From contig JAFWNF010000007.1 in the NCBI GenBank assembly GCA_017510445.1, positions 1 through 64,000 on the forward strand: DNA of 64,000 nucleotides. Direction: 5' to 3'. Positions within the stretch are counted from its first letter, which is position 1; each line of letters starts with the position of its first letter. Shown here piece after piece: positions 20,084 through 34,497 of this stretch. The notes below the pieces were generated by a model. The model did no database searches. It had not been told where the DNA came from and saw nothing but the letters and a program-made list of their open reading frames with translations. The DNA comes from Candidatus Saccharimonadota bacterium (GTDB taxonomy: Bacteria; Patescibacteriota; Saccharimonadia; Saccharimonadales; Saccharimonadaceae). The position numbers and the translations under genes were made by a program.

Positions 20084-20737
20084 CTAGATCTTTATTTTTT
20101 CTTCAATCACTCTTATCAAATCCCCCAACGGAATTGTTTTCCCTTCTACCCTAAACGTCGGAGTCCCAACAAGATGTATTTTCTTACCCAAACTCTGTTC
20201 AAACTGTAGTCTCTTTTTTGTATTCTCGCTGCTCATATCCTCAATAAATTTTTCCAGATCTCCAGAGCCATCAGAGGCCTGCTCAAAAAATCCAGAAAAA
20301 ATAGCCAATAATCTGTCATCTTCCTCATAAAACCACTCCGCCTGATTCTCGAAAAGTAAATCCTTATACCCCTCAAAATACCCCTGAATCTGCGCAGCAG
20401 TCGCTGCACGCGCCGCTGCTACTCCATTTTTGAAACCAAGATCATAACTTCGAAACACCAAAGCAATCTCTCCCTCATGTTTATCCATCAAATCATTAAT
20501 TCTTCGGTTCCAATCAGCGCAATGTGAACAGCCAAAATCTGCATATTCATAAATAACTACTTTTGCCTCACTGGGATTTCCAACGATTTTTTCGCCAATA
20601 AAGCCAGTCTCCTCTGACGCCTCCTGAATAAAATCGACATTTGACTCTTCTTGCTCTTCCTCACTAGACAGCATTAACCAACCAATTCCGACGGCGATCA
20701 TAGCAACTACTATTCCTAAAATTATCTTCTTTTTCAT
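20084..20737 (-). CDS. DsbA-family thiol-disulfide oxidoreductase, membrane-anchored
   Basis: 217 residues. One N-terminal transmembrane helix (about 5-22) is followed by a linker and a thioredoxin_4/DsbA domain with CxxC in EYADFGCSHC (about residue 72) and the cis-Pro strand VGTPTFRVEGK near 190. It probably oxidises or isomerises disulfides outside the membrane. GGAGAGAAAA precedes the ATG. It lies 15 bases after the XRE-type membrane regulator on the same strand, so the pair is likely an operon. Several proteins here, such as the pilus and surface proteins, have paired cysteines and could be substrates. Confidence 0.9.
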   Translation of the reverse strand: MKKKIILGIVVAMIAVGIGWLMLSSEEEQEESNVDFIQEASEETGFIGEKIVGNPSEAKVVIYEYADFGCSHCADWNRRINDLMDKHEGEIALVFRSYDLGFKNGVAAARAATAAQIQGYFEGYKDLLFENQAEWFYEEDDRLLAIFSGFFEQASDGSGDLEKFIEDMSSENTKKRLQFEQSLGKKIHLVGTPTFRVEGKTIPLGDLIRVIEEKIKI

Positions 20738-27026: not shown

Positions 27027-28229
27027 CTATATAGCACTTACTAATGAATAAATAGGCATCAACGTACCCATCAAGACCACGCCGATAAGACCCGCCATTA
27101 CCACCATAAGCACTGGCTCAATTAATGTCGAAATATTTTTAATCTTTTCGTCCAATTCGTTTTCATAGACAGTTCCTGCCTTTCTAAGCATCTCGTCGAT
27201 TTTGCCCGATTCCTCGCCAATTGATGCCATTTGAGGCACGAGCGGCAAAATATAATCTTTGTCTTTCAGAGATTCCGAAAGCGCCTTTCCTGCTTTAACT
27301 TTTTCAGATGCATCAAGAATTATTTGTTCTACTATAGCATTAGCTGTCGCTCGTGCAGAAATTTTCATTGAATCAAGCATAGATACACCACTTCCGAGAA
27401 GCATTTCCATAGTTCTCGCGAACCGCGCCATATAAAGTCTTTTAAATAAACCGTTGAAGAGTGGCACATGTAGTTTAATGAACGAAAAAAACTTTTTACC
27501 AGAATCAGACCTTCTAAAGCTCCCTATTAAAACTGCTACTACAATAAGGACTATTGCTATGACATACCAAAAATTAATAAAGAAGTCCATCACGCTAAAC
27601 AAAAAGTTAGTTAGTTCTGGTATAGGTTTTTTCATTGATTCATATAAATTGACGACCTCTGGAACAACCTGAGTCATCATAAAAATCAACACCAAAATAA
27701 TAACCACAAACAAAATAGCTGGATACACCATTGCTCCACGAATCTTCGAAATCATCGCATCATCTTTCTCTTCTTGCATAGCTAAACGACTAAGCGACTC
27801 ATCTAGAGTACCGCTCATCTCGCCAGCAGCCACTAATGAAAGATAAACGTCCGAAAAAACATCAGGATGACTTTTCATCGCATCTGATAATGATTTGCCC
27901 CCTTCAACTTGAGCCAAAAGGTCTTCGACCACAGACTTCATCGCTTTAGCCTGCGTTTGTTCAGATATAGTTCTAAGGCTTGTAGAAAGTGGCAAACCAG
28001 CACCAATTAAAGTTGCAAATTGTCTCGTGAAAACTATCCTGTCTTTTGTTTTAACTTTATTCTGTATTTTAGCAAAAACGCTACTTTTATCTTCTTCGGA
28101 AATACTCTCTGGGAAAAACCCCTGTTCTACCAGAAGCTTCCCTGCCGTTCGTTCATTTTCGGCCTGTATTGCACCTTTTACTATCTTTCCAGTTTCTTTG
28201 TCTCTTGCCCTATAATTAAATCTTTTCAT
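27027..28229 (-). CDS. pilC: Type IV pilus inner membrane platform protein PilC
   Basis: 400 residues with two T2SSF domains (about 65-190 and 265-390) and three transmembrane helices. Signature FTRQFATLIGAGLPLSTSLR and MARFARTMEMLLGSGVSMLDSM are the repeated cytoplasmic domains. It is the platform on which the PilB and PilT motors act. It is last in the operon, two bases after pilT. Confidence 0.96.
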   Translation of the reverse strand: MKRFNYRARDKETGKIVKGAIQAENERTAGKLLVEQGFFPESISEEDKSSVFAKIQNKVKTKDRIVFTRQFATLIGAGLPLSTSLRTISEQTQAKAMKSVVEDLLAQVEGGKSLSDAMKSHPDVFSDVYLSLVAAGEMSGTLDESLSRLAMQEEKDDAMISKIRGAMVYPAILFVVIILVLIFMMTQVVPEVVNLYESMKKPIPELTNFLFSVMDFFINFWYVIAIVLIVVAVLIGSFRRSDSGKKFFSFIKLHVPLFNGLFKRLYMARFARTMEMLLGSGVSMLDSMKISARATANAIVEQIILDASEKVKAGKALSESLKDKDYILPLVPQMASIGEESGKIDEMLRKAGTVYENELDEKIKNISTLIEPVLMVVMAGLIGVVLMGTLMPIYSLVSAI

Positions 28230-28231
28230 AT

Positions 28232-29305
28232 CTATCCCTTCATTAGCCTTTCAAACTCTTTCAGGTCAACTGCAAATTCTCGGCCATCATCATAACTAAT
28301 CTGGCCCGACTGAACCATCTTCACTAGCGTTCTATCCATAGTTTGCATACCCTCATCTACGCCAGTCTGAATTACTGTATCAAGCTGAAAAGTTTTTCCT
28401 TCACGTATTAAAGCTCTTGCTGCCGAATTTGCAATCATAATTTCCGTAGCTACAACTCTGCCACCGTTAATAGCCGGAATTAACCTTTGTGAGCAAATAG
28501 CCATTAAAACATTTGAAAGCTGTGTCTTAATTTGTTGCTGTTGATGTGCCGGGAAAACATCAATAATACGATCTATTGACTGGGCAGCAGAATTTGTATG
28601 AAGCGTCGCAAAAACAAGGTGACCAGTCTCGGCTATCGAAATGGCTGAAGAAATCGTTTCGAGGTCTCGCATCTCGCCAATTAAAACCACATCTGGATCT
28701 TGACGAAGCGCTGATCGAAGCGCAGCGGTAAATGAATACGTATCATAATGAACTTCTCTCTGCACAATAATTGAACGATGTGACTTGTGAGTAAATTCAA
28801 CTGGATCTTCTATTGTAATGATATGTACAGACTTTTCACGATTTATTTTATCTATCAAAGCAGCTAGAGTAGTCGATTTTCCTGATCCTGTTGGCCCAGT
28901 GACTAATACTAATCCTCTAGGATACTCAGCAAACTTCTCGACAGCATGCGGAAGTCCCAGCTCAGATATTGACGGTATTTCATTGGGAATTAAACGAAAT
29001 GCGGCAGCAAGATTACCTTTTTCATGAAAAGCATTCGCTCTAAAACGCCCCAAATCTCCGAATGCGAACGAATAATCAAATTCCTTATCTTTTAGAAGAA
29101 TATTTCTCTGGTTATTATCTAAAGTCGCAAAAACCAAAGATTCAACCACTTCTTCACTGAGCGCAGGTATTCCTCCAATTGCAACCATTTTTCCGTCAAT
29201 TCTCAAAATTGGCGGAGTTCCAACTTGAAGATGCAAATCAGAAGCTTTACGTTTTACGCATTCTTCAAGTAATGTTTCGATCCTGAGTTGCCCACCATTA
29301 TCCAT
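28232..29305 (-). CDS. pilT: Pilus retraction ATPase PilT
   Basis: 357 residues. It has Walker A GPTGSGKSTT near residue 141, the Asp box (ITIEDPVE), Walker B LIGEMRD and His box GHLVFATLHTNSA. The N-terminal PAS-like domain starts ASDLHLQVGTPP. The AIRNLIRE-like C-terminal motif appears as ARALIREGKTFQ. It powers pilus retraction and twitching. A -10-like TAAGAT ends six bases before the ATG, so it may have its own leaderless promoter inside the operon. Confidence 0.97.
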   Translation of the reverse strand: MDNGGQLRIETLLEECVKRKASDLHLQVGTPPILRIDGKMVAIGGIPALSEEVVESLVFATLDNNQRNILLKDKEFDYSFAFGDLGRFRANAFHEKGNLAAAFRLIPNEIPSISELGLPHAVEKFAEYPRGLVLVTGPTGSGKSTTLAALIDKINREKSVHIITIEDPVEFTHKSHRSIIVQREVHYDTYSFTAALRSALRQDPDVVLIGEMRDLETISSAISIAETGHLVFATLHTNSAAQSIDRIIDVFPAHQQQQIKTQLSNVLMAICSQRLIPAINGGRVVATEIMIANSAARALIREGKTFQLDTVIQTGVDEGMQTMDRTLVKMVQSGQISYDDGREFAVDLKEFERLMKG

Positions 29306-29331: not shown

Positions 29332-31101
29332 TTATGCCAAGTCAGATGAAACTCGGTTCACTTCCTCTAGAGTTGTTATGCCTGATAATGCTTTTAGTAT
29401 TCCATCTTGTCGCATCGTTACCGTACCCTTTTTCTTCGCTAAATTCATAATTTCAGCAGATGTAGAATGATTGATTATTAACTTTTGAATATCTTCATCT
29501 ACCGTAATTGTCTCATAAAGACCAGCTCTGCCCAGATATCCTCCAGGAGTTTCCTTCGTGTCAATACCATCTACCAAAGTATATCCGCTCGTATTAGCAA
29601 CTGGCAGCCCTTGATATCCTAGAATTTGTCCAGCTTTTGCTACCATATCTGCAGTTCTTGGTAAAAGATTTCCTACTGAATCATTAATCATTTTCGTTTC
29701 AAGTTCGCTCGACTTTCTTTGTTCCCTTTTCTCGGCTACCCTCCTAACTAGCCTCTGGCCAATCACTGTATTAAGCGTAGATGCCAAAAGAAACGGTTCA
29801 ATTCCCATATCAAGAAGCCTCGGCAAAATACCTGCAGCAGAGTTAGTGTGAAGCGTAGAAAACACTAAGTGACCAGTCAAAGCAGCCTGCACCGCTAATC
29901 CTGCTGTTTCCGAATCACGAATCTCTCCAACCATAACAACGTCTGGGTCTTGACGCAAAATTGAACGAAGACCTGACGCAAATGTCAATCCAGCATCAAC
30001 ATTAACTTGTATTTGGTTTATCCCGTCCATCTTATATTCAACTGGATCCTCAAGCGTCACTATATTTATCGCTTCGTTCTTAATCTTCGCGACAAGTGCA
30101 TAAAGCGTTGTTGACTTACCTGAACCAGTTGGCCCAGAAGTCAAAATCATTCCATTAGGTTTTGAAATCCCCTCAATTACATCTCGAAGCGCCCTGCCAG
30201 TCATCCCCATTTTCTCTATTTCCATCGCCGTTCCATTCTTATCAAGCAAACGAATCACAACCTGTTCTCCCCAAACCACTGGAGATATTGCGATACGAAG
30301 GTCAATCTCCTTATCTGCCACAGCTACCGTAAACTGACCATCCTGCGGAATACGATGCTCGTCAATTTTTAAATTTGATAATATTTTAATTCTTGAAACG
30401 AGTGCTGGTTCAATAGTTTTCGGAAGTTCCATAATTTGTCTCAAAACACCATCTACCCTACAACGAATAATTAGCTTCTTTTCCAGCGGTTCAATATGAA
30501 TATCAGACGCTTTAGATTTAGCTGCATAATTTAAAATCGTATTAAGTGCTTTAGAAATCGGCGAATCCTGAGTAATTGTTTTGACATCGCTTTTCTCGTT
30601 TGCAATTTCTATTTCTTCGTTTGTTTGTTTGACTGCTTGTTTTACGCTTGAAAAATCACTCTTGTACTGAGCCAATGTTTCACGAACGCCTTCCTCCGAA
30701 GTAACAACAGTCCTAATCGGTTTTTGAATCAATGTAGAAAGATAATCAACCGCCTGAATATTCCCAGCATCAAGCATAGCTATTACTAATCGGCCGTCTT
30801 TTCCTTCCGCTACTGGTACCGCCATATTACGCTCAGCTATATCCTGAGGTAAATTCAAAAGTACTTCCTGCTCAATTTTTACATTTTTTAAATCCACATA
30901 CTGCATGCCTAAAACAATTGCAGAGGCATGTGAAACAATATCGTCTGAAACCAATTTTTTATTCGTCAAAAACGAAAGTACAGGTTGCTTGGCTTTTTTC
31001 GCCTCTTCTTCTGCAGCTAAGACAGCCTCTGCGTCCGCAAGCCCTTCATCAACTATCAGCCTAACAACTTTTTCTTGTGATTCTTTAGTCAGAAGCGCCA
31101 T
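29332..31101 (-). CDS. pilB: Pilus assembly ATPase PilB
   Basis: 589 residues. An N-terminal T2SSE_N domain (about 1-150) precedes a secretion ATPase core with Walker A GPTGSGKSTT near 327, ITLEDPVEYK, GEIRDSETA and GHLVFSTLHTNSA. The tetracysteine zinc motif of classical PilB/GspE is absent; a polar insert (REQRKSSELETK) replaces it. It drives pilus extension. It follows the 94-residue EF-hand protein by 10 bases. Confidence 0.97.
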   Translation of the reverse strand: MALLTKESQEKVVRLIVDEGLADAEAVLAAEEEAKKAKQPVLSFLTNKKLVSDDIVSHASAIVLGMQYVDLKNVKIEQEVLLNLPQDIAERNMAVPVAEGKDGRLVIAMLDAGNIQAVDYLSTLIQKPIRTVVTSEEGVRETLAQYKSDFSSVKQAVKQTNEEIEIANEKSDVKTITQDSPISKALNTILNYAAKSKASDIHIEPLEKKLIIRCRVDGVLRQIMELPKTIEPALVSRIKILSNLKIDEHRIPQDGQFTVAVADKEIDLRIAISPVVWGEQVVIRLLDKNGTAMEIEKMGMTGRALRDVIEGISKPNGMILTSGPTGSGKSTTLYALVAKIKNEAINIVTLEDPVEYKMDGINQIQVNVDAGLTFASGLRSILRQDPDVVMVGEIRDSETAGLAVQAALTGHLVFSTLHTNSAAGILPRLLDMGIEPFLLASTLNTVIGQRLVRRVAEKREQRKSSELETKMINDSVGNLLPRTADMVAKAGQILGYQGLPVANTSGYTLVDGIDTKETPGGYLGRAGLYETITVDEDIQKLIINHSTSAEIMNLAKKKGTVTMRQDGILKALSGITTLEEVNRVSSDLA

Positions 31102-31111
31102 CTAGCCTCCA

Positions 31112-31396
31112 CTATTTTGTATCAATCTCATTACATTCAACTTTTTCTGCATCACTCAGAATACCGTCCTGATCAGCGTCAACACATTTTCCAATATAAA
31201 CCTCCACTGTAGGATTTATCGCATTCACATTAAACATGTCAGGATTTGGCATCTTAACCGTATCGTCTATTGGACTAATCTTCTTATAGGTTACAGAAGC
31301 CTTATCTGGATCCATAAACATCCCAACAACCAAATAAGAAACTATAAATCCAAAAACAGCAATCGCCACAATAGAAATAACATCTGACTGCTTCAT
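31112..31396 (-). CDS. Small membrane protein with EF-hand loop in pilus operon
   Basis: 94 residues. One transmembrane helix (about 6-27) precedes an extracytoplasmic part ending in a canonical Ca-binding loop, D73-A-D-Q-D-G-I-L-S-D-A-E84, flanked by Cys71 and Cys88 that could form a disulfide. It overlaps the PilO-like gene by one base. Its position suggests a PilP-like or calcium-responsive accessory subunit of the pilus. I recognise no named family. Confidence 0.8.
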   Translation of the reverse strand: MKQSDVISIVAIAVFGFIVSYLVVGMFMDPDKASVTYKKISPIDDTVKMPNPDMFNVNAINPTVEVYIGKCVDADQDGILSDAEKVECNEIDTK

Positions 31397-32289
31397 TATT
31401 TTTTTCCTCCTTTGGCCGTTATAGTTTCATTCGTTTCCGATGATAATATTTCATTCGCATAGTACGCCTCAGCCGAAGCAGAAAATTTAACATTTTCGCC
31501 TCCTTTTGGCATCTCGAATTTCAAGGACACGACATTAAAATATCGAATAGATTTGCTAATATTCCCCAACAGATTATTGATCTGTTCAAATGACACATTC
31601 GCATCTTCGTTATTAAAGTTAACCGGAATTGAAGACAACCCTTCTATATTTGATTTGTTACTAGAATTATTTGGCGCAATTGAACTTGGGCTCCAATCTG
31701 AATTGATATAAATCTGGTTTAAACTTGCTAGCAACGCCTCTGTATTTTTACTTGTTGGCAAAGAATCAGGGATAACTCTCAATGCCGAACAAATTTTCAT
31801 CGCATTCATATAATATCTCTTTTCATTAGTCGTCTTTGAATTCATTTTCATCTCCTTCAGCTCCGCAGAAGAGTACTGCTCATTGGTTTCCGGGTTAATA
31901 CAAACCGACAAAGTTTTTCTTGCGACAGACTCAAAATTAATATTAGAGGATGCGTCGTCCATGATGCTAGCCCTAAGCGTACCAGGCACGTCCTTTGACT
32001 CAGTCAAGTTCGGATTACAGGCTTTTAGCTCGTCTTGAGTGTAATCTTTATTTTTGGGAGCCTTGCACGCACCAGAATTTTTAATAGCCGCTGAATATCC
32101 TGAAATTGCTTCACCCTGTTTTGTAATAACTTTATTATTGAAATCTATATACTTTGAAAAATTTATTACTAATACTAAACCAGCGCCAACGACAACTGCT
32201 GTTAAACCAACAATGCCCAACGTAGTCTGCTGTGCCTTTGATATTTTTAACCCTCCAGTCACAGATTGGTTTCGAAAATCGAATTTCAT
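31396..32289 (-). CDS. pilO: Pilus alignment protein, PilO-like
   Basis: 297 residues: cytoplasmic N-terminus, one transmembrane helix (about 24-47), coiled-coil start, then a periplasmic-type domain, as in PilO. It contains several cysteines. It overlaps the PilN-like gene by four bases. Sequence similarity to PilO is weak; the call rests on topology and on position between pilN and pilB. It may span between the PilM/N cytoplasmic ring and outer parts. Confidence 0.7.
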   Translation of the reverse strand: MKFDFRNQSVTGGLKISKAQQTTLGIVGLTAVVVGAGLVLVINFSKYIDFNNKVITKQGEAISGYSAAIKNSGACKAPKNKDYTQDELKACNPNLTESKDVPGTLRASIMDDASSNINFESVARKTLSVCINPETNEQYSSAELKEMKMNSKTTNEKRYYMNAMKICSALRVIPDSLPTSKNTEALLASLNQIYINSDWSPSSIAPNNSSNKSNIEGLSSIPVNFNNEDANVSFEQINNLLGNISKSIRYFNVVSLKFEMPKGGENVKFSASAEAYYANEILSSETNETITAKGGKK

Positions 32290-33458
32290 TGTTCACCTCC
32301 ATCTTCCACGTCTGCGCAATCTACGTCCTCACTTCCACATTTTTCCGCTTCTTCTTCAAATAATTTCTGAATTTGCATATTAGAGTCCGTCACATTCACA
32401 TATCCAGTTGGTGCTATAAAGCTCATATGTTTGTTTTTAAGCAACATCGCCTCAGGATTATAGGAAAGTATTGCCTCAAACTTTAAAACTAATCCCTCTG
32501 GACCTTTTCCATTAGAACTACTAGATATCTCCAACTCCTTAACGATTAAATTACATGAATTTGAACTCGACCAACGACCACCCACAAGTTCATAATTAAT
32601 GCATTTACTTTCAAAATGTTCAATCCCATCAATTTCACCCCCTCCATTAATGTAGTTTTCCTCTCCTTCTCCATGGAACCAATCTTTAAATCTTGGAGTT
32701 CTCCAGATAACTATTGACTCACTGTCGTTTCTCGCCTCTATAACATCCTCTTCGCGGATATTAACCACCTCTGTCTTCCTTACAGTTTCGTTTCCATCTT
32801 CATCAACAACTGTTTCTCCCTCGTCTTCAGGATCACACCCACTTACACCCTTTGTCCAGATAGCGTACAGATCATTTGTCTCCTCATCTCTAAGAATGTT
32901 CCCACTCTCATCAGTTTCAATAATACACACCGAAGGAATAGTCATATTGTTTTCGTTTTTGTACTCTCCATAATCAAATTTCATATACTCCATACTTTTC
33001 TTGAAAGCTTCCAAAACTCTATAATCAATCAATGGCACTACTTTCGCATCGGCCTGTGCCGAAAATCTAATTGTACTATCTACCAAATTGACATTGACGT
33101 CCGAAAAAGTAATTTCATCACCGTTTGTAGGCGCCAAAACATTCAACAAATTAAATATCCTTGAATAATCAACTCTAGACTCAGCTATTTTATCTATATT
33201 ATTAAGCTGATTTTGCATCGTTAAAAATTCATTCAAATCATCATAGGTGGTTATTTTTGATGACATCATTTTCAGTCGATCTGTCTGTTCTCCGATGTTA
33301 ACATCCTGGACCACCTTAATTGAAAGCAAAACAAGTACGACTGTTATCATACTAATCATAGCCAAAACGCATGCGATGAATACAATGTTGCGGATTCTTT
33401 GTGTTTTTAAAACTGCAACTTTAAGATCCGGAACAAGATTAATCTCAAACATTTGCAT
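32286..33458 (-). CDS. pilN: Pilus alignment protein, PilN-like
   Basis: 390 residues. It starts MQMFEINLVPDLK, matching the conserved INLLP-type N-terminal PilN motif that docks into PilM, followed by a transmembrane helix (about 26-49). The soluble part is about twice the size of classical PilN, with an acidic insert (about residues 195-260). It overlaps pilM by 14 bases and the PilO-like gene by four. Identification is good from the motif and context. Confidence 0.85.
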   Translation of the reverse strand: MQMFEINLVPDLKVAVLKTQRIRNIVFIACVLAMISMITVVLVLLSIKVVQDVNIGEQTDRLKMMSSKITTYDDLNEFLTMQNQLNNIDKIAESRVDYSRIFNLLNVLAPTNGDEITFSDVNVNLVDSTIRFSAQADAKVVPLIDYRVLEAFKKSMEYMKFDYGEYKNENNMTIPSVCIIETDESGNILRDEETNDLYAIWTKGVSGCDPEDEGETVVDEDGNETVRKTEVVNIREEDVIEARNDSESIVIWRTPRFKDWFHGEGEENYINGGGEIDGIEHFESKCINYELVGGRWSSSNSCNLIVKELEISSSSNGKGPEGLVLKFEAILSYNPEAMLLKNKHMSFIAPTGYVNVTDSNMQIQKLFEEEAEKCGSEDVDCADVEDGGEQ

Positions 33459-34497
33459 TACTCCTCTCCGCTAAACCAATTGCCACTGCAAACTCGCTCG
33501 CCACGCCAGCCAAATCATTTTGTTGCTCTGGTGTTACACGCACAGCTTGCCATGGATTACCCTGAATAGTAGAAATATTCGTCTTTGCTTCTATATACTC
33601 TGCTACAAAAGGTATCATTTCTGCATAACCAGAAAGCACAATTCCGCCCATCTTCGAGTTCAAATACTTTGATTGGAAGAATTTCGCTGATTTCGTTAAC
33701 TCTGAAGCAAAAGATTCAAGAATTGGGTCTAGCGCTCTAAAAACTTGTCCATCAACTTTATCCTGTGCTAAACCAAATTTCAAAACAAACTGTCTTGCTT
33801 GATCCTCTTTCACTGATAGTGCATTGGCTACGGTTTTTATCATTACCTCAAAACCACCAGGAACTGAACGAACTAATCTTGGCGCTCCTTTATAAACAAC
33901 CACGATATCTGCAGATTTCTCACCAAGATCCACAATCATTTGTGCGTCAACAGCCCCAATTGGCACAAGCGATCTCGCCATAGCTAGTGGCTCCGGTTCA
34001 AAAGCAATCACATTATAACCTAACCCCTCAATGAAATTCAGTTGTTCCTCGGCAAACTTATTTGTAGTCGAAGAAATCAAAACTTCTGCTTTCGCCGGAT
34101 CATTCGGACTTGTTCCAAGACAAATAAAATCTACTTTGGCTTCCTCGATCTGCATCGGGATATATTGATCTACTTGATACTTTACAGTCTTCATCAACTC
34201 TTTAATTGGCGCATTTTCAGTTTCAATTATTGAAGTAAAGGTTTTTTGTGCTGGAAAACCAACTGCAACGTTTTTCGTGCGAATTCCAGCATCAAAAATA
34301 GACTGCTTAATCAAATCACCATATTTTTTTCGTCCCAACTCACTACTATCCTGAGCTAGTTTCGCATCTACAGGAATATATTTATATTTTTGAAGTACCC
34401 AACCATGCTGGATATCTCCATCAAGCTGAACTATACGAATAGAATTCGTCCCAAAATCCATGGCAAAGAATTCGCCCAACCCTTTGAATAGTCTCAT
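33445..34497 (-). CDS. pilM: Pilus assembly actin-like protein PilM
   Basis: 350 residues with an FtsA/actin-like ATPase fold: MDFGTNSIRIVQLDG, DLGEKSADIVVVYKG and GGIVLSGYAEMIP are the phosphate and adenosine motifs. PilM forms the cytoplasmic ring that binds PilN. It is first in the seven-gene operon. TATAAT (34504-34509) ends six bases before the ATG, so the operon message is probably leaderless. Confidence 0.95.
   Translation of the reverse strand: MRLFKGLGEFFAMDFGTNSIRIVQLDGDIQHGWVLQKYKYIPVDAKLAQDSSELGRKKYGDLIKQSIFDAGIRTKNVAVGFPAQKTFTSIIETENAPIKELMKTVKYQVDQYIPMQIEEAKVDFICLGTSPNDPAKAEVLISSTTNKFAEEQLNFIEGLGYNVIAFEPEPLAMARSLVPIGAVDAQMIVDLGEKSADIVVVYKGAPRLVRSVPGGFEVMIKTVANALSVKEDQARQFVLKFGLAQDKVDGQVFRALDPILESFASELTKSAKFFQSKYLNSKMGGIVLSGYAEMIPFVAEYIEAKTNISTIQGNPWQAVRVTPEQQNDLAGVASEFAVAIGLAERSNANV

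Follow-up and report, generated by a model that had tools for sequence, protein, structure and literature searches.

A small membrane protein at the PilP position of the Saccharibacterial type IV pilus operon, with a cysteine-framed EF-hand-type loop in one clade

The window analyzed here, a 64,000-nucleotide stretch of DNA from a Candidatus Saccharimonadota bacterium, carries a type IV pilus operon on its reverse strand (Table 1). Between pilO and pilB lies a gene whose product we label X, and whose ATG start codon overlaps the stop codon of pilO by a single base (TAATG). A GGAGG motif precedes X at 31410–31406 and another precedes pilB at 31110–31106, the pilB start lying 10 bases beyond X; given these two sites, X looks to be translated. 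Re-reading of the sequence bears out the original prediction of a 94-residue membrane protein with an EF-hand loop (D73–E84) between two cysteines and a one-base overlap with pilO. The MshEN domain, present here in PilB, is in other bacteria a c-di-GMP-binding domain.

Table 1. Coordinates and basis of assignment of the features of the locus, in window positions.
Feature	Position	Strand	Basis or remark
DsbA-like Thioredoxin_4 protein	20132–20587	−	the pil operon lies about 10 kb away
pilC, platform protein	27027–28229	−	Pfam T2SSF, 5.7e-56
pilT, retraction ATPase	28232–29305	−	named by gene order and T2SSE match
pilB, extension ATPase	29332–31101	−	MshEN domain, E 1.7e-14
gene X	31112–31396	−	encodes a bitopic protein of 94 aa; lies at the PilP position, flanked by pilO and pilB; ATG start
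cysteine-framed module C71–C88 of X	31133–31186	−	strict pattern match, the sole one in its own genome
EF-hand-type loop D73–E84 of X	31145–31180	−	sequence pattern and conservation
conserved arm motif of X, residues 50–69, PNPDMFNVNAINPTVEVYIG	31190–31249	−	alignment conservation
predicted transmembrane helix of X, residues 3–27	31316–31390	−	AlphaFold2 helix 3–27
pilO	31396–32289	−	Pfam PilO, 7.7e-5; neighbor with related cysteine-framed hairpin
PilO hairpin C75–C91, CKAPKNKDYTQDELKAC	32017–32067	−	ligand-less in the window
pilN	32286–33458	−	position only; no match of the product to Pfam PilN
pilM	33445–34497	−	Pfam PilM_2, 3.3e-33

The AlphaFold2 model of X, computed for X alone, has a single N-terminal helix at residues 3–27 (block pLDDT 81–97), followed by an arm that includes the conserved motif (pLDDT about 55–62). 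The cysteines and the loop suggest that the N-terminus would lie inside the cell and the loop outside. Members of the family share one N-terminal helix, an arm with the motif P..(Y/F)FN....(N/D)PT, and a variable C-terminus, which is acidic in many of them. Within the arm motif, P50, F55, N56, N61, P62, and T63 are invariant across 46 aligned rows, and F55, N56, P62, and T63 are retained in at least 90% of an order-wide sample of 24 rows. No family in Pfam or NCBIfam covers X; fold searches, and sequence-profile searches of the PDB with two X profiles (A3 and A4), gave no solved-structure or fold match, and the viral contigs searched held no relative. A type IV pilin is marked by a prepilin peptidase site, G/A-F....E, ahead of its hydrophobic helix; the N-terminus of X (MKQSDVISIVAIAV), read by eye, has no such site.

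Single-sequence search detected homologs of X in 53 of 60 genomes of relatives; a profile run over the order detected them in 342 of 392 genomes. Across 120 loci of 6–12 kb, pilB adjoins X in 119, the exception (L052) being a spurious second match, and the order pilM-N-O-X-B holds as far as the contigs reach, followed in most by pilT and pilC. Within the order, the pilus operon has X as a constant member. Relative to pilM-N-O-X-B, pilT and pilC are inverted at L101:8528-10790; four other loci (L082, L138, L149, and L150), unlike most, have no separate pilT or pilC within about 4 kb after pilB, so that these genes must be located in another place; and at L230 (genome G416), unlike other loci, pilC follows X directly with no pilB between. 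Open frames of 669–683 aa in three genomes (G136, G144, and G224) were considered as possible X–PilO or X–PilB fusions; for L206 (G144) this was rejected, since a stop codon separates X from pilB there. Among the best 80 of 108, the close relatives of the window belong to Candidatus Saccharibacteria; most come from the ruminant gut, and further ones are oral taxon HOT-351 and Candidatus Nanosyncoccus alces.

Beyond the order, a profile built on the order gave weak matches. Nineteen of 20 loci fetched from other orders or classes lie in a pil operon, with a frame of 77–98 aa and a membrane helix at the place of X; the one outside is L228. A second X profile (A3), built from 12 of these loci and run against 286 genomes, gave full-length strong matches (E < 1e-13) in seven genomes of other classes that were unused in building it (G600, G636, G461, G478, G619, G581, and G590). 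In all, this phylum search listed 122 of the 286 genomes, mostly through weak matches to membrane helices in long frames, and only full-length strong matches were counted. On the strength of the 19 pil-operon loci and the seven strong-match genomes, X reaches beyond Saccharibacteria into some other Patescibacteria; it was not found throughout the phylum.

In the window protein, C71 and C88 flank the loop D73-A-D-Q-D-G-I-L-S-D-A-E84, in which every canonical ligand position is filled and which conforms to the EF-hand pattern of D1, D/N/S at positions 3 and 5, G6, a hydrophobic residue at 8, and E12. Among the stop-to-stop frames of more than 60 aa in the window (270 frames, 38,371 aa), one EF-type loop was observed, where 200 shuffles gave 0.14 per window; for cysteine-framed EF-type loops the corresponding figures are one and 0.0. 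Across the 37 EF-clade X loops, D1, E12, and both cysteines occur in 37/37 and positions 3 and 5 hold D or N, counts that are partly true by definition because the class motif itself demanded D1, D/N/S at 3 and 5, E12, and both cysteines. Free of that definition are G6 (36/37), position 8, the lack of intermediates (among the 80 best loci no half-decayed EF-hand occurs save L095, with A at loop position 6), and the use of both synonymous codons at D1 (GAC 23, GAT 14) and E12 (GAA 21, GAG 16). Positions 2, 4, 7, 10, 11, and 14 vary freely. The original prediction had named conservation of the loop in homologs as its check: within the EF clade the loop is invariant in 37/37, and in more distant orthologs it is absent.

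This loop shares with the canonical EF-hand (PF00036, PF13202) its 12-residue length, its full ligand set, and an exit helix, modeled at residues 82–87, and one relative passes a Pfam cut-off (L097, EF-hand_5, 29.2 versus 25.9 bits). It differs in its two-cysteine frame, in the want of a confident entering helix (none is predicted in the low-confidence arm), and in being single and unpaired: more than one EF-hand loop per X occurs in 2 of 80 loci, and the window protein has one. L092 carries three units and L097 two, numbers that point to multiplication of the EF-hand unit on the X tail. A Pfam EF-hand search of 30 relatives gave none above cut-off, and it left the window's own loop unlisted as well, so the search lacks the sensitivity to pick up a lone loop. 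Excalibur domains (PF05901) are extracellular and carry a cysteine-linked DxDxDG; unlike them, X has a full 12-residue loop with E12, and its cysteines are placed differently. With the Excalibur profile, the window X gave no match at E 1, and the better of two further EF members reached E = 2, below cut-off. Judged by its residues, the X loop would bind calcium, and C71 and C88 would form a disulfide. The absence of VKOR from all 18 genomes searched of g1, our code for the GTDB genus of the window, weakens the case for a disulfide. Thioredoxins of the DsbA-like type, in contrast, occur in 30/30 genomes, and the window's Thioredoxin_4 protein is a candidate oxidant of the cysteine frames.

The scan of public genomes leans toward near kin because it retained the best 80 of 108 relatives; among these 80, the C-terminal loop of X is an EF-hand in 36, a C-8-C short loop in 36, a one-shorter loop in one (L128), a longer loop whose cysteines enclose W(D/N) in five, and absent in two. 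The short loop keeps G at loop position 6 in 36/36 and D/N at position 3 in 33/36. No EF-hand occurs in another 40 loci, of which the remainder of the family supplied 39; among these loci, 15 of g32 show the longer cysteine loop. The EF-hand of X is confined to one clade of g1, and loop-less forms are commoner elsewhere, in most of the order. X itself is widespread in the order, but with the EF-hand restricted to one clade, the label "CPR-specific" that the original prediction gave to a possible calcium switch is not supported. On PilB trees (a quick tree, with weak relevant branches), the four loop states need 3–4 changes. Because EF rows sit around the base of the cysteine-loop clade, the simple reading is one gain of the EF-hand followed by replacement in two sister clades, the alternative on these weak branches being a single EF clade.

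The neighboring PilO shares this module, a feature absent from the original prediction. Of 35 EF-clade loci, 17 encode a PilO with a true cysteine-framed EF-hand, the 18-residue unit C-x-D-x-(D/N)-x-(D/N)-G...E...C; the other 18, including the window, have a PilO hairpin of 17–18 residues without the full ligand set. Beyond the EF clade, the ligands are missing from all 101 PilO rows. The cysteine hairpin as such occurs in 35/35 EF-clade rows, at least 33/37 short-loop rows, and 1/44 rows without an X loop, the last being L123, which is located inside the short-loop clade. Among 20 WD-type rows the sole rule match (L146) falls within a membrane helix and was discarded as false. Elsewhere in the order, PilO from other families contains no cysteine or a single one at most loci. 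PilN and PilO of the window also have extra cysteines outside the hairpin, such as those in PilN SKCINYELVGGRWSSSNSCN. The AlphaFold2 model of PilO from an EF-loop relative (mean pLDDT 73.7) matches the PilO structures 3jc8 and 2rjz and has a helix at residues 20–74, comprising membrane span and stalk, then the EF loop and a helix at 88–93, so that this loop has both an entering and an exit helix.

Searched as a DNA pattern across 99 whole genomes, the strict unit gave 33 matches in 21 of 60 g1 genomes and none in 39 others of the order, with 0 matches for the reversed-pattern control. X accounts for 22 of the 33 and PilO for the other 11, which makes this the same module in two adjacent pilus subunits, found nowhere else in the 99 genomes by the strict pattern, which misses variants such as L095/G016. 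The association of X loop and PilO hairpin amounts to one or two independent contrasts, so no statistic can rest on their co-occurrence. PilO ligands were gained or lost about six times on the tree, compared with two changes in X, and a fixed X–PilO calcium contact is therefore not needed.

Turning to known pilus components, X occupies the place of PilP (PF04351), directly after pilM-N-O, and resembles both PilP and the GspC arm of type II secretion in its membrane anchor and long arm. PilP, in the passages of PMC5805733 that describe it, binds PilNO through an unstructured arm and the secretin PilQ through a β-domain; PMC6916266, where it treats PilP, gives it as absent from the monoderm S. 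sanguinis and holds it absent in monoderms for want of a secretin. Among relatives of X outside the window's family, the last 12 residues contain PF in 25/38 against 1.9/38 in shuffles (14/19 in other families of the order and 11/19 in other orders or classes; for example, GRDNPFGGL), at the point where the folded domain of PilP would begin. The motif occurs in 2/40 of the further family set and 0/80 of the nearest set, the window's own clade. The only comparator, E. coli HofP (the PilP-place protein of hofMNOPQ), has GMRDPFKPP, with RDPF, ahead of a longer folded C-terminal part. In contrast to PilP and GspC, X and its relatives, mostly 75–200 aa and from single-membrane cells, have no folded β-domain, lipobox, or family match; the 94-residue X has no predicted strands (AlphaFold2), no PilP profile match in Pfam or NCBIfam, and no PilP among the PDB matches of profiles A3 and A4. 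X is not filed as PilP because both a profile match and the β-domain were looked for and neither was found. The PilP family search, with no match in the window's own genome or any of 14 control genomes, is uninformative on absence. Given PilNO binding by the PilP arm, the absence of PilP from monoderm S. sanguinis, the PF motif, and the position, we think that X may do the work of a PilP arm that has no secretin-binding domain attached.

We propose, giving the idea roughly even chances, that X is a constant arm subunit of the pilus base, docked on PilNO and fitted in the window's clade with a calcium–disulfide clasp, and that its role is structural. A membrane-anchored, extended arm would dock on the PilN–PilO stalks, as the PilP N-terminal arm does in diderms, and the secretin-binding domain would be missing from X in single-membrane cells that have no secretin. 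In the window's clade, the EF-hand at the outer end of X would hold an extracellular calcium ion constitutively; ion and disulfide together would hold a short turn rigid, and this turn would pin the arm to the PilO stalk at its tip. There the matching hairpin would help to hold X and PilO together in the pilus base. That the calcium site has been replaced in sister clades while the cysteine frame was retained, and that PilO ligands changed about six times, argues for a structural loop rather than a switch. The invariance of the X ligands is stricter than mere stability may need, which counts against a purely structural role.

A calcium switch, in which the loop would empty and fill with extracellular calcium and so set pilus extension, retraction, or host attachment, is the first alternative; it is the view of the original prediction, widened to include PilO, and we consider it unlikely. 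If the loop faces fluids with millimolar calcium, it would usually stay filled; moreover, the EF-hand is single and unpaired, sister clades have other cysteine loops instead, and most of the order has none. On the other side stand the invariant ligands in X, the confinement of the module to two neighboring pilus-base proteins, and the action of calcium on pili through PilY1 elsewhere, as reported in passages of PMC4471445. PilY1/PilC resembles X in having an EF-hand-like loop within a pilus system, but its site lies in a β-propeller domain of a large, late-acting protein, whereas X is a small protein of the base; the conserved loop supports the original prediction of a small EF-hand protein in the pil operon rather than PilY1. 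The T2SS pseudopilus, a type IV filament system, has calcium in a filament subunit rather than in the base. An elaborated version, in which twin cysteine-framed EF-hands on X and the PilO stalk tip would form one extracellular clasp tuning assembly or retraction to host calcium, seems to us less probable again; we know of no type IV filament with calcium control at the pilus base.

About as improbable as the simple switch is a contact role, in which the X arm and its varied cysteine tips would touch peptidoglycan, the host envelope, or the filament, with calcium stabilizing the tip and no PilNO partner. The tip is the fastest-changing part of X (EF, short, WD-type, and repeated loops, and long acidic tails), which favors this reading, but the fixed place inside pilM-N-O-X-B, the conserved arm motif, and the co-occurrence of the PilO hairpin with the X loop speak against it. 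That the loop is a coincidence of the acidic tails that many members carry, and binds no calcium, is very improbable in view of ligands kept in 37/37 despite synonymous codon change, a fixed cysteine frame, repetition of the unit within X, and the same 18-residue unit in PilO.

Pili matter in the episymbiosis of Saccharibacteria. The detailed TM7x inventory lists 24 pilus genes without naming a small protein in the place of PilP (PMC12206443). Numbered by fives, the TM7x locus tags 00415-00475 would amount to 13 genes; 12 of these have names, and the one left over may be X. Class I essential genes make up most of the T4P1 locus SEML1_0104-0116 (PMC10633639). In open-licence PMC literature we found no report of an EF-hand or PilP-like protein in the pili of Saccharibacteria or the candidate phyla radiation. 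What appears new here is that the base of a type IVa pilus has an additional, PilP-placed subunit together with a putative calcium-type module. If X preserves a PilP-like arm but not the secretin-binding domain, the two roles of PilP are separable, and the steadying of PilN–PilO would be suggested as the more general one. The calcium module, for its part, offers through its gains and losses on X and PilO a natural series that is amenable to tests in cultured Saccharibacteria.
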